This document shows positions 110-36,100 of a stretch of DNA of 64,000 bases, piece after piece. The stretch comes from Oasisia sp. SBJ-2009 (taxonomy: Eukaryota; Annelida; Polychaeta; Sabellida; Siboglinidae): positions 10,181,882 through 10,245,881 of the forward strand of contig OZ024856.1 of NCBI GenBank assembly GCA_964017155.1. The letters are read 5' to 3'. The position numbers and the translations under genes were made by a program. Below the pieces are notes generated by a model. The model ran no database searches. It was not told where the DNA came from and was given only the letters and a program-made list of their open reading frames with translations. Within the stretch, counting starts at the first letter, position 1. Each line of letters opens with the position of its first letter.

Positions 110-167
110 TTTCTGTCGTTCTTGCACAGCCAAAGTGATATGTTTCTTCATCGCCTCCCGCTTGATC
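110..167 (-). CDS. PLCB1: PLC-beta exon 28 (coiled-coil, last exon in window)
   Basis: Encodes [19 protein letters not shown], a basic helix of the distal C-terminal domain. The acceptor is TTCAG and the donor AAA|GTGAGT, so the coding sequence continues beyond position 1. Confidence 0.9.
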
Positions 168-3100
168 CTGAACACACAAGACACTAGTGTCAGACACTCT
201 CTACAAGACAGTGTCAGAGACACTACCAAGACACTCTCTACCAAGACAGTGTCAGAGACACACTCTACCAAGACAGTGTCACAGACACTCTCCACCAAGA
301 CAGTGTCACAGACACTCTCTACCAAGACAGTGTCAGAGACACTCTCCACCAAGACAGTGTCAGAGACACTCTCTACCAAGACAGCGTCAGAGACACTCTC
401 TACCAAGACAGTGTCAGAGACATACTCTACCAAGACAGTGTCACAGACACTCTCCACCAAGACAGTGTCACAGACACTCTCTACCAAGACAGTGTCAGAG
501 ACACTCTCTACCATGACAGTGACAGACACACTCTCTACCAAGACAGTGTCAGAGACACAACAAGACAGCATAACAGACACTCTCTACCAAGTCAGTGTCA
601 GAGATATTCTCTACCAAGACAGTGTCAGAGACTCTCCACCAGGACAGTGTCAGAGACACTCCACCAGGAGAGACACTCTCTACCAAGACAGTGTCAGAGA
701 CACTCTCTGCCAAGACAGTGTCAGAGGCACTCTACCAAGACAGTGTCAGAGGCACTCTCCACCAAGACAGTGTCAGAGGCACTCTCTGCCAAGACAGTGT
801 CAGAGACATTCTCTACCAGAGACACTCTCCACCAAGACAGTGTCAGAGACACACTCTACCAAGACAGTGTCACAGACACTCTCCACCAAGACAGTGTCAC
901 AGACACTCTCTACCAAGACAGTGTCAGAGACACTCTCTACCAAGATAGTGTCACAGACACTCTCTACCAAGACAGTGTCACAGACACTCTCTACCAAGAC
1001 AGTGTCACAGACACTCTACATCATAACAGTGGTTTCCGTAAAACTTCCTACTAAAATGGCCATCAGTGATCCTCCTGTGCACCAGCATTCAATATAATTA
1101 TTAATTAGGGTCTCTATGTGTAACAGATAATATTGCGTGAGATTTTTATTTTTATATTTACTCACGACTGGTTGCTAGTAGGACTTGCTCATCACTCACT
1201 CACTACTAGTCACTAGTAGCGACATATATGTGGATATCTCTAAGGAACAAAATATATTTTAAAGAGCAGGATCATGCTTGTGTAAGATGAACACAACTGG
1301 TACAAGGATCCATTAGGACCCAAAAACACCCAGAATGACAGAGAGACGTGCCTTGACAGTTCATTCTTCTCCTTGTGCTTCTTGGCGAGTGCCTTCATCT
1401 CGTCGTGATTGTACGTGTCCAACTTCTTCCTCAGTTCCGTCACCTCGCGGTCGTGGATGTCGTCCAGCTGCTTCAGCAGCGCCTCCTGGCGAACGTCGAT
1501 GGCATGACAGAGTGCGTTGTTGAGCAGCAGCACGTAGTGGCCGGCAACGTCCGACTCCGTCTTGTAGTGCTCCCGACACAACGCCATCATCTCTTCCGCC
1601 TGAGACACCTTCTGCTCCCGGTGCTACGACACAGTGACACAACATGACACAGTGACATAACATGACACATTGACATGACATAGTGACAAAACATGACACA
1701 AAGCCATCATCTCCTCCGCCTGAGACACCTTCTGCTCCCAGTGCTACGACACAGTGACACAACATGACACAGTGACACAACGTGACACACTGACATGACA
1801 CAGTGACACGATATGACACAATGTCATCATCGTCTCCACCTGCAACACCTTCTGCTCCTGGTGCTATAACATATATGTAAAAATTACACAATATGACACA
1901 TGTACACATATATATTTATAATATATATATATACATATATATATATGTATATAAATATATATATATATAATTATGTGTTAATATGTATCCAAAATACACT
2001 GCAAAGTATGTGTAATATTGTACTGTTTATGTAATATAAGAAATTAGAAATTTCTTACGGAATGCAAATAATAAGTATTTAATTTCTTGCATTACCTTTC
2101 AAAGCGCTTATAGATTGTTTTCATTATGGTATAATGTTTATGTATGCAGAGCAATTAGTTGCTGTGTCTAGATTAATTTTTTATGTGTTAAGAATGCATC
2201 TTGTATATATATATATATATACGGTATATATATGTTTTTGTTTTAAATTAAATTGTAAAATGCGACAAGACCCTCTTCCACACTGACCTTCCTGAGTTGG
2301 TCGGGGGTGAGGGTGTCCTGCAGGTTGGGGCCGTCAGCGGGGTTAGAGTTGCCGCGGCGCGAGGCTCGCTTCACTGACTTCCTGTAGGCCTTCTGCAGCG
2401 TGCCCTTGCCCTTGATCTGGGACAGCAGCAGCTTCTCCTCCTGCAGCCCGTGCACCTCTCGCAGGATCTGCTGCGCCTGCACAACGCAAGGTCAAGGTCA
2501 TCACACAAGGTCAGGGTCGTGATCCAAAGTCAACGTCACCCCTGAAGGTGTCGGTATGGGAGGAACATGTTACCAATAGCAATCCTGTCATTCTAGTTCC
2601 AGTTCTTTGTGAAGTTATTGTGAGGTAGGGGGTGGAGGGTGAGTTAGAGGGTGGAAGGTGAGTTAGGAGGCTGAGGGTGAGTTAGGGGGTGGAGGTTGAG
2701 TTAGGGGGTGGAGGGTGAGACAGAGGGTTGAGGGTGAGTTAAGGGGTGGAGGTTGAATTAGGGGGTGGATGGTGAGACAGAGGGTTGAGGGTGAGTTAAG
2801 GGGTGGAGGTTGAGTTAGGGGGTGGATGGTGAGACAGAGGGTTGAGGGTGAGTTAGGGGGTGGAGGGTTAGACAGAGGGTTGAGGGTGAGTTGGGGGTGG
2901 AGGTTGAGACGGAGGGTTGAGGATGAGTTAGGGGGTGGAGGGTGAGACAGAGGGTTGAGGGTGAGTTAGGGGGTGGTGGGTGAGACAGAGGGTTGAGGGT
3001 GAGTTAGGGGGTGGAGGATGAGAAAGAGGGTTGAGGATGAGCTAGGGGGTGGAGGGTGAGAAAGAGGGTTGAGGATGAGCTAGGGGGTGCAGGGTGAGAC

Positions 3101-33100: not shown

Positions 33101-36100
33101 AATTAATTCCTCCTCCATCATCTGAAAGCAATTAGTTGTGGTCACAGCCAGTGGTCACTGGATGGCCAATGGTCACTGGATGGCCAGTGGTCACTCAGCC
33201 AATCAGAAAAGACTAAAAAGAGGCATTAGAGAGAATAAATCTGTGAGATGCCAATAAACGTGACCAAGAAAATTAGTTGATCTGGTTAATTTATTAAATC
33301 GTACTGGCGTAATGTGATTTCTCTATAAACGGTGCCAGGAGTGAACTAGGAATCATTCGTGGTAGCAGCTGGGACAGGAACAATGTCCTTGAGTGGATTA
33401 ATGATCTGGTTTCTTGGTCGTAAAATAATAAAATTAGACACAATTATCATAATTTATTAGATGTTTCTTGAGAGGTAATTATGTCTGTTTAAAACGACAT
33501 GTGTGTGTGTGTGCATGCGTGCATGTGTGCATGTGAGGGGTGTGTGGTGTGTGTGTGCATGCATGTGTGTGTGTGCACACATGCATGCATGTACATGCAT
33601 TTGGAAATGCACGCATGAATATGTATATGGTGTACGTACATACGACCATATGTACACATGTGCACGTGTCTGTGGTGTGTGCAATGTGCATACATGCAGA
33701 TGAACAAACCGATGCACATGCATACACTTACTTATATCTAAAATTATATATATATATTACATTTTCTACATACTCCATACCCACAGTCAAATGCATCGTT
33801 TTCTCTCTGACTGGTGCCAGTGATGGTCAGTCTGTACCATGAAATGCTCAAAGCACGGATGCCATGGTCTGCCTTAACCTATCCTTCTAACAGGATTATG
33901 TCTGTCCCAGAGCGATGACATTGACATGTAGAAGATGACCTTGAGACTGACCTTTGGGAGACGAGAAGATCGGCCAGTGCGCGTGTCTCGGATGAGGCAG
34001 ATGTCAAGACAGTCCGTCTCCTGCAACACAGGACAAGACATGATGGATGCAGCAGAGACTGTGTGAGACTAAGGGAGACTGTATGAGACTAAGAGAGACT
34101 GTGTGAGACTAAGAGAGACTGTGTGAGACTAAGAGAGACTGTGTGAGACTAAGAGAGACTGTGTGAGACTTTATGGAGACTGTGTGAGACTAAGAGAGAC
34201 TGTGTGAGACTAAGAGAGACTGTGTGAGACTAAGAGACACTGTGTGAGACTAAGAGAGACTGTGTGAGACTAAGAGAGACTGTGGGAGACTTTATGGAGA
34301 CTGTGTGAGACTAAGGGAGACTGTGTGAGATGTTGCGAGTGTGAGACTAACAGTTTGAGGCTGTGTTAGGCAATATGAGACTATGAGACCGTGTGACTGT
34401 GTGACTATGTGACTGAGAGTATGTGAGACTACTTGAGACTGTGTTAGACTGTGTGAGATTGCATGAGACTGTGTGGGAATGCATATGACACTGAGATTGC
34501 ATAAGATGGTAAGAGACTGTGCGAGACTATGTGAGACTGCAAAAGACTGTGTAAGACTGTCAGTGAGACTATCGGGCAGTATTGGAATGCATCATACTGT
34601 GTGGCTTCGGGCACACTGTACAGACCACACAAATGTGTAATAGCCACGACCAGTTAGTGTTGCATTATGTCACCACCAGGGAGTCAAACGTGATCGGTGG
34701 TGCGTGACAAGTGGTGCTTGATGTGGTGTGTCACCACTGTTGTGTAATTGTTGACATGTAAGAGCAATCACAGAAAGAAAAGTGACCAGGAAATGCCCAA
34801 CAAAGAAACAAACTCCTGGCAAAGTTGTTTTAAAGACGTTACAAATGTGAAAAATGTATTACATTTCGGGTGAAACCAAGTAAGTAATATCACATTTGCA
34901 TAGCTTCATAACAGCCACGAGAAGCAATTATCATTATTACAGCATTTCCAGTTATCATCATTACAGCATTTCCATTTTATTTCCATCTCATTTATAATGC
35001 AGCATATTATGTCATTAATTGCAGTGCCAATGGCAGACAACCATTTCATGCCAAACACAACATGGTGACCCCTAGTGAATCAACTGACCAGTCGATGTGT
35101 CCAGTGATAAAAGTAAATAATTAAAAAAGGATGGTCAAAGCCCAACTTTGCTTCTTTCTGTGTTTAAATGAACATAGACAGAAGCAAGTGGACCTCTACA
35201 TGCACAAGAAGACACACTTTGAGTGTCTCCAAATCACAGTATCTATAAATAGATAATAGCTTTTTATTTGAGAACAATTTGTGTTCATGTAAATGTTCAT
35301 ACAAATTCGTTGATAAATATATGAAATCATGTCTCTTTTTATCATGCTGAGATGACATAATGGTGACTAAACACTAGATGGCAGCACTAAGAAGTAAACA
35401 AAAACTTGCACAAAGAACTCTGTACTGCTCCATTACGTCTCTGTGCCAGAACAATGGCTACCCGGTCAATATACCCCTTATGTCATTTACCATTTTATTC
35501 CTTTCTCTTTCACAATGACCAGATTCATCAAAAAACAATTAATTAACATGTCTAATCATTTGTTAATAGTAAATATTTTTTACCAACAATCTAGGATGTT
35601 GTAGTTGACGGTAGGGAGAGTTACAACAAATAAACTGGGTGGGTTTGTGTAATGTCTCTGAAATGAGACACGTGCCAGCCTGGACCAGAGAAGGAGCCGC
35701 TAAGCTCTGCAAGCCACTTGATTGTCAGGTCTAATTTTCAGTGAGATTACGGGCTGAAATGTGAGGATTGGCGCGCAAGGGTACACGAACGACGTCGCTC
35801 AAAGAGAGGCTGTGCCAGGAGCACAAAGAGCCATTAATCACGTGATATCTGGGTCTGCAGACCGCAACTCAGATCTGTGCCATCGCCACTGGCAGTAATG
35901 TGTCCGATTAAATTTGTTATAAATATAAGTACTTTTTTGTTTTTGTAAACATATATATATATATATATATATATATATATATATATATATATATATATAT
36001 ATATGTACCATTACATGTCAATTCATTAAATGTCATAAAAATGTAAATATATTATAAAACACACACACACATATATATATATATATATATATATATATAT

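Follow-up and report, generated by a model that had tools for sequence, protein, structure and literature searches.

The introns of the gene described here are very rich in minisatellites. The question raised by this locus is whether these repeats copy the exon-intron junctions beside which they lie, and whether their origin involves a process that starts at splice junctions, as the initial annotation suggested.

Most of one phospholipase C-beta (PLC-beta) gene lies on the minus strand of the window, i.e., the whole 64,000-nucleotide stretch of DNA that was analyzed. The exons were placed by hand and joined by script; the mapping spans E2 to E29, with E1 and the 3' end beyond the mapped part. 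Exon numbers are those of the initial annotation plus one.

110..58436, minus strand: phospholipase C-beta gene, E2 (58359-58436) to E29 (110-167); 28 exons with 1196 stop-free codons

The introns are of the GT-AG type with the single exception of the GC-AG intron after E28, which has its apparent GC donor at 1352. The best solved relative is PLC-beta-3 (E 3e-277). A Pfam scan of six single reading frames gives one match, the PLC Y domain, below the curated cutoff, and scans for tRNAs and Rfam families give no matches. The top protein matches come from molluscs, nemerteans, and annelids (best 120 of 5633 matches, with 7979 candidates scored). A maximum-likelihood tree of the window protein and 31 of these 120 listed proteins places it with Capitella and two other proteins (support of 97/94), followed by Dimorphilus (100/99). 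Owenia branches elsewhere, next to the molluscs (88/85). All three genera are annelids, and the placement of the protein with Capitella and Dimorphilus makes an annelid host very probable. Amphioxus as the host is unsupported, since Branchiostoma is far from the window protein in the tree.

Repeat units at splice junctions

An ungapped test compared 25 bp on each side of the 54 junctions with the adjoining intron, excluding the junction itself and requiring matches to span the splice site. A clear junction-spanning copy is defined by a score of at least 16 in the junction's own intron. Such copies are found for 9 of the 54 junctions, with units sitting on the donor side at five (E4, E9, E10, E11, and E23) and on the acceptor side at four (E15, E19, E26, and E28). 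The E13 acceptor is a weak tenth case with a score of 14, giving 10/54 at a score of at least 14. None of the 1404 pairings of junction probes with foreign introns reaches a score of at least 14. These cross-pair counts are used in place of per-junction P values, which are unreliable because long introns provide few independent windows of matched length. Repeats that copy their own junctions are thus confirmed as real in this gene. In the following they are called mirages, after the amphioxus repeats discussed in the last section.

31416..32106, minus strand: donor mirage after E4; 36-bp unit, 18 extra copies, start 24 bp inside the exon
23143..23735, minus strand: donor mirage after E9; 18/16-bp units, 31 extra copies
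20997..22338, minus strand: donor mirage after E10; 36-bp unit, 36 extra copies, exon frame open throughout
20407..20738, minus strand: donor mirage after E11; degenerate unit of ~21 bp, 11 extra copies, in two Tandem Repeats Finder (TRF) pieces (20483-20738 and 20407-20446)
10219..11652, minus strand: donor mirage after E23; 75-bp unit, 18 extra copies
17496..17560, minus strand: two-copy acceptor duplication before E15; copy junction at 17537, offset of 42 bp, score of 17.0, not listed by TRF
14936..15375, minus strand: acceptor mirage before E19; 39-bp unit, 9 further copies, AG intact in 2/9
3766..3952, minus strand: acceptor mirage before E26; unit of ~74 bp, one clear spanning copy
1575..1866, minus strand: acceptor mirage before E28; 120-bp unit, two extra copies, start 49 bp inside the exon
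18905..19157, minus strand: weak acceptor case before E13; 34-bp unit, score of 14, mismatches at the splice site itself, AG in 2/7 copies

In a gapped test, each of the 33 TRF arrays from introns 3 to 28 was represented by its consensus unit, which was aligned with both junctions of the array's own intron and, as controls, with 52 other junctions and 400 random positions. Among the 24 listed of 66 rows, the own junction ranks top for the acceptors of E28, E26, E19, and E13 and the donors of E23, E10, E4, E9, and E11. The two-copy E15 case is absent from the TRF list and hence outside these nine. The array beside the E4 acceptor also ranks its own junction top but is not counted because its ungapped score is only 9.0. 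For the E26 acceptor, the TRF array ends 6 bp short of the exon, yet the aligned copy includes exon sequence.

All five donor-type repeats that the initial annotation had placed after its exons 3, 8, 9, 10, and 22 (E4, E9, E10, E11, and E23) are confirmed in both tests. The acceptor-type repeats stand before its exons 14, 18, 25, and 27 (E15, E19, E26, and E28) and, weakly, before its "probable" exon 12 (E13). Its other "probable" case, exon 22, is not confirmed: the array near the E23 acceptor is 154 bp away, and no spanning match for it occurs among the 24 listed of 66 rows of the gapped test. Near the E12 acceptor, a 14-bp array of ~49 copies (19392-20082) ends 8 bp before the splice site, and its unit has no significant match across the junction.

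The donor arrays start within the exon and extend into the intron. Together they contain 114 extra donor copies, 11 to 36 per array. GT is kept in 105/114, and 90/114 match or exceed the score of the authentic donor under a matrix built from the 27 donors of this gene, the used ones included; the copies were gathered by similarity at identity cutoffs of 0.60 to 0.75, so that intact sites are overrepresented among them. The acceptor cases show fewer or more degraded copies than the donor arrays. Decay with distance from the exon, another feature of the initial annotation, applies to part of the four donor arrays compared. Copies farther from the exon show lower identity to the authentic one in E10 (rho of -0.66) and E23 (-0.78) but not in E4 (+0.18) or E9 (-0.01), whereas identity to the array consensus falls in E4 (-0.77) and E23.

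Frequency and origin of the junction arrays

Tandem repeats make up 39.6% of introns 3 to 28 and 31.4% of intron 2. Further repeats and elements in the window are as follows.

56906-57347, intron 2: array with a donor-like unit on the plus strand (ACAGGTGAGC); orientation antisense to the gene, closest mapped junction 1011 bp away
18056-18166: 18-bp tandem repeat inside coding exon E14, in an acidic linker of the protein
7875-8758, intron 24: (CA)n-type simple repeat of 884 bp
6933-7090: 79-bp tandem duplication (two copies, head to tail, 100% matches), probably of very recent origin
5467-5900, intron 24, minus strand: stretch that by eye resembles the last part of a reading frame from a non-LTR retrotransposon

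How often junctions lie in such arrays depends on the unit of counting. Junctions are inside arrays no more often than ordinary intron positions: an own-intron spanning copy is found for 1258 of 3000 random positions in introns 3 to 28 (41.9%), compared to 10 of 52 junctions (19%). Counting by founding event gives a different picture. In the per-array null, each array is collapsed to one unit, which leaves 53 arrays with a period of at least 9; the count omits one array inside E14, microsatellites with a period below 9, eight arrays outside the mapped introns, and E15, which as a two-copy case is not a TRF array. Nine of the 53 arrays span a junction (eight without E13), compared to 1.9 expected under uniform placement or 2.9 under placement within the own intron. 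The corresponding P values are 8e-5 (nine arrays) and 5e-4 (eight) for uniform placement and 8e-4 and 0.004 within introns, and all of them are optimistic because the window was flagged for looking odd and some arrays probably descend from one another. The excess over random seeding is 2.7 to 4.6 fold. The initial statement that the repeats lie far beyond random expectation therefore holds per founding array and fails per intronic position.

The arrays are best read as mirage-type minisatellites, with a probability of roughly 0.6. Here, a short tandem duplication would by chance span an exon-intron junction, and the array would then expand into the intron through slippage or unequal exchange. 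Growth on the intron side would be harmless as long as splicing picks the site beside the exon. The spliceosome presumably takes this exon-adjacent copy through exon definition, and its use would allow the extra sites to be tolerated. Since the introns are very rich in minisatellites, some junction-spanning events are expected anyway. The presence of own-intron copies at 9 to 10 of the 54 junctions and the location of the arrays on the intron side agree with such an origin. The argument covers one gene and one haplotype at the level of genomic DNA.

The remaining excess at junctions, about 3 to 5 fold, would most simply reflect persistence. Selection would hold the exon copy constant, and this copy may serve as a lasting template, whereas arrays lying wholly within the intron would decay or vanish. 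Junction arrays are longer than the other arrays of introns 3 to 28 (median of 440 versus 89 bp; p of 0.004), and this greater length, together with the falling identity in E10 and E23, fits a persistence effect. Against it stand E4 and E9, in which the fall with distance is missing, and the greater length could also stem from the longer units of the junction arrays (median of 39 versus 21 bp).

An alternative that we consider unlikely treats the junctions as initiation hotspots, at which tandem duplications are preferentially produced in connection with transcription or splicing, for instance through R-loops, a stalled polymerase, or repair at co-transcriptional splice sites. The per-array excess favors this explanation, as does the occurrence of repeats on both donor and acceptor sides, and the two-copy E15 case resembles an early stage. 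However, arrays cover junctions less often per position than random intron sites, and 20 like arrays fill the 24-kb intron 2 away from any junction. The initial annotation is right about the anatomy, and the process starting at splice junctions that it had in mind is partly supported by the per-array excess, but the junctions are not richer in arrays per position.

Somewhat less probable again is pure chance in a minisatellite-rich gene that was noticed because the window looked striking. In its favor are the own-intron copies at 42% of random positions in introns 3 to 28, a within-intron expectation of 2.9 arrays, and a nonrandom choice of window; P values of at most 0.004 in every version of the per-array null, with eight or nine arrays, speak against it.

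Splice-site choice and reading frame

The mirage-type origin assumes that the copy beside the exon is the one used. Eleven relatives align without inserts through the joins after E4, E9, E10, E11, and E18, whereas the join after E23 is too variable among relatives to judge. Protein conservation is therefore consistent with splicing at the site beside the exon for E4, E9, E10, E11, and E18/E19, and where it can be judged, alignment with the relatives shows this site as the one predicted to reproduce the conserved protein.

Unit lengths are divisible by 3 in 7 of the 9 TRF mirages. The same holds for 21 of the 33 arrays in introns 3 to 28 (168-33951), compared to 3 of 20 in intron 2 (34021-58358), a post hoc comparison with a Fisher p of 0.0007. 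A reading-frame filter, i.e., selection for in-frame leakage, is rejected as the explanation of this bias because only three of the nine mirages (E10, E19, and E23) would keep an open reading frame at their first extra copy and because the nonmirage arrays of introns 3 to 28 show the same bias (14/24).

Selection could also act on the sites themselves, maintaining spare splice sites or employing extra ones for regulated splicing, an idea already present in the initial annotation as selection for reserve sites. This we regard as improbable, less so only than an assembly artifact. The high share of extra donor copies with an intact GT and with scores at or above that of the authentic donor is in its favor, but the collection of copies by similarity favors intact sites. 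On average, conservation is somewhat higher in the splice-motif columns than elsewhere in the unit for three of four donor arrays (E9, E10, and E23, not E4). When the motif is rotated around the unit, its conservation remains within the range of the rotations in all four arrays (19/36, 3/36, 17/75, and 2/17 rotations as extreme), a result without significance in a weak test whose smallest reachable value in E9 is 1/17; the proposal thus gains no significant support from these arrays. The rarity of open frames at the first extra copy and the often broken acceptor copies, such as those of E19, also argue against it. An assembly artifact is close to negligible: long arrays are difficult to assemble, but the units of the nine TRF mirages are unrelated and their copies differ from one another (69 to 95% matches).

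The donor arrays have a bearing on splicing itself. Between 11 and 36 extra donor copies lie directly behind the used site, and if RNA shows use of the exon-adjacent site only, these arrays would constitute a natural experiment on how the spliceosome picks a site by its position rather than its strength. They may also supply raw material for longer exons, as the exon frame runs uninterrupted through all 36 copies of the E10 array.

Comparison with known systems

The phenomenon of junction repeats is itself already described and named in amphioxus. According to the available part of that report, "mirages" are tandem repeats of the exon-intron boundary in Adh3 and the globin genes BflGb6 and BflGb9 (PMC3087553). 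They lie in the intron beside the exon, on the donor or acceptor side, and many units bear AG/GT signals (PMC3087553). Length instability and normal splicing are reported for them, and the original naming paper dates from 2002 (PMC3087553). The PLC-beta arrays share the units that span the boundary, the occurrence on either side, and the position inside the adjoining intron. They differ in that the host groups with annelids and that a single gene bears nine or ten cases. Instability and normal splicing belong to the amphioxus description; the PLC-beta arrays are described from the sequence of one haplotype. The PLC-beta arrays are read as mirages, densely placed and apparently outside the cephalochordates; in the open-access literature searched, judged by title or the start of the abstract, no report of mirages outside amphioxus was recognized.

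A bolder reading, tentative and on balance doubtful, is that in animals generally, minisatellites preferentially arise or find refuge at exon-intron junctions. One class of repeats would have appeared in both annelids and cephalochordates, so that the junction itself would make arrays start or persist, and tens of intact decoy sites would be passed over by position alone. If decoys are bypassed in this way, genes with such arrays put exon definition to a natural test. Should junction minisatellites be present in distant phyla, they would be no oddity of amphioxus, and one could ask whether repeats are born at junctions or only persist there.

Two other systems are related in part. The Rogers model describes intron gain through tandem duplication that carries AG/GT sites, with an RdRp gene of potato as a case (PMC4974935). 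Judging from the available part of that source, the duplication copies splice signals as in the PLC-beta arrays, but it gives rise to a new intron, whereas the PLC-beta repeats sit within introns. Metallothionein genes of earthworms carry intronic minisatellites and thus resemble the PLC-beta gene as annelid genes with large arrays of this kind (PMC12783039). Units that span splice junctions are unreported in the accessible portion of the earthworm study (PMC12783039), whereas the PLC-beta gene contains them.
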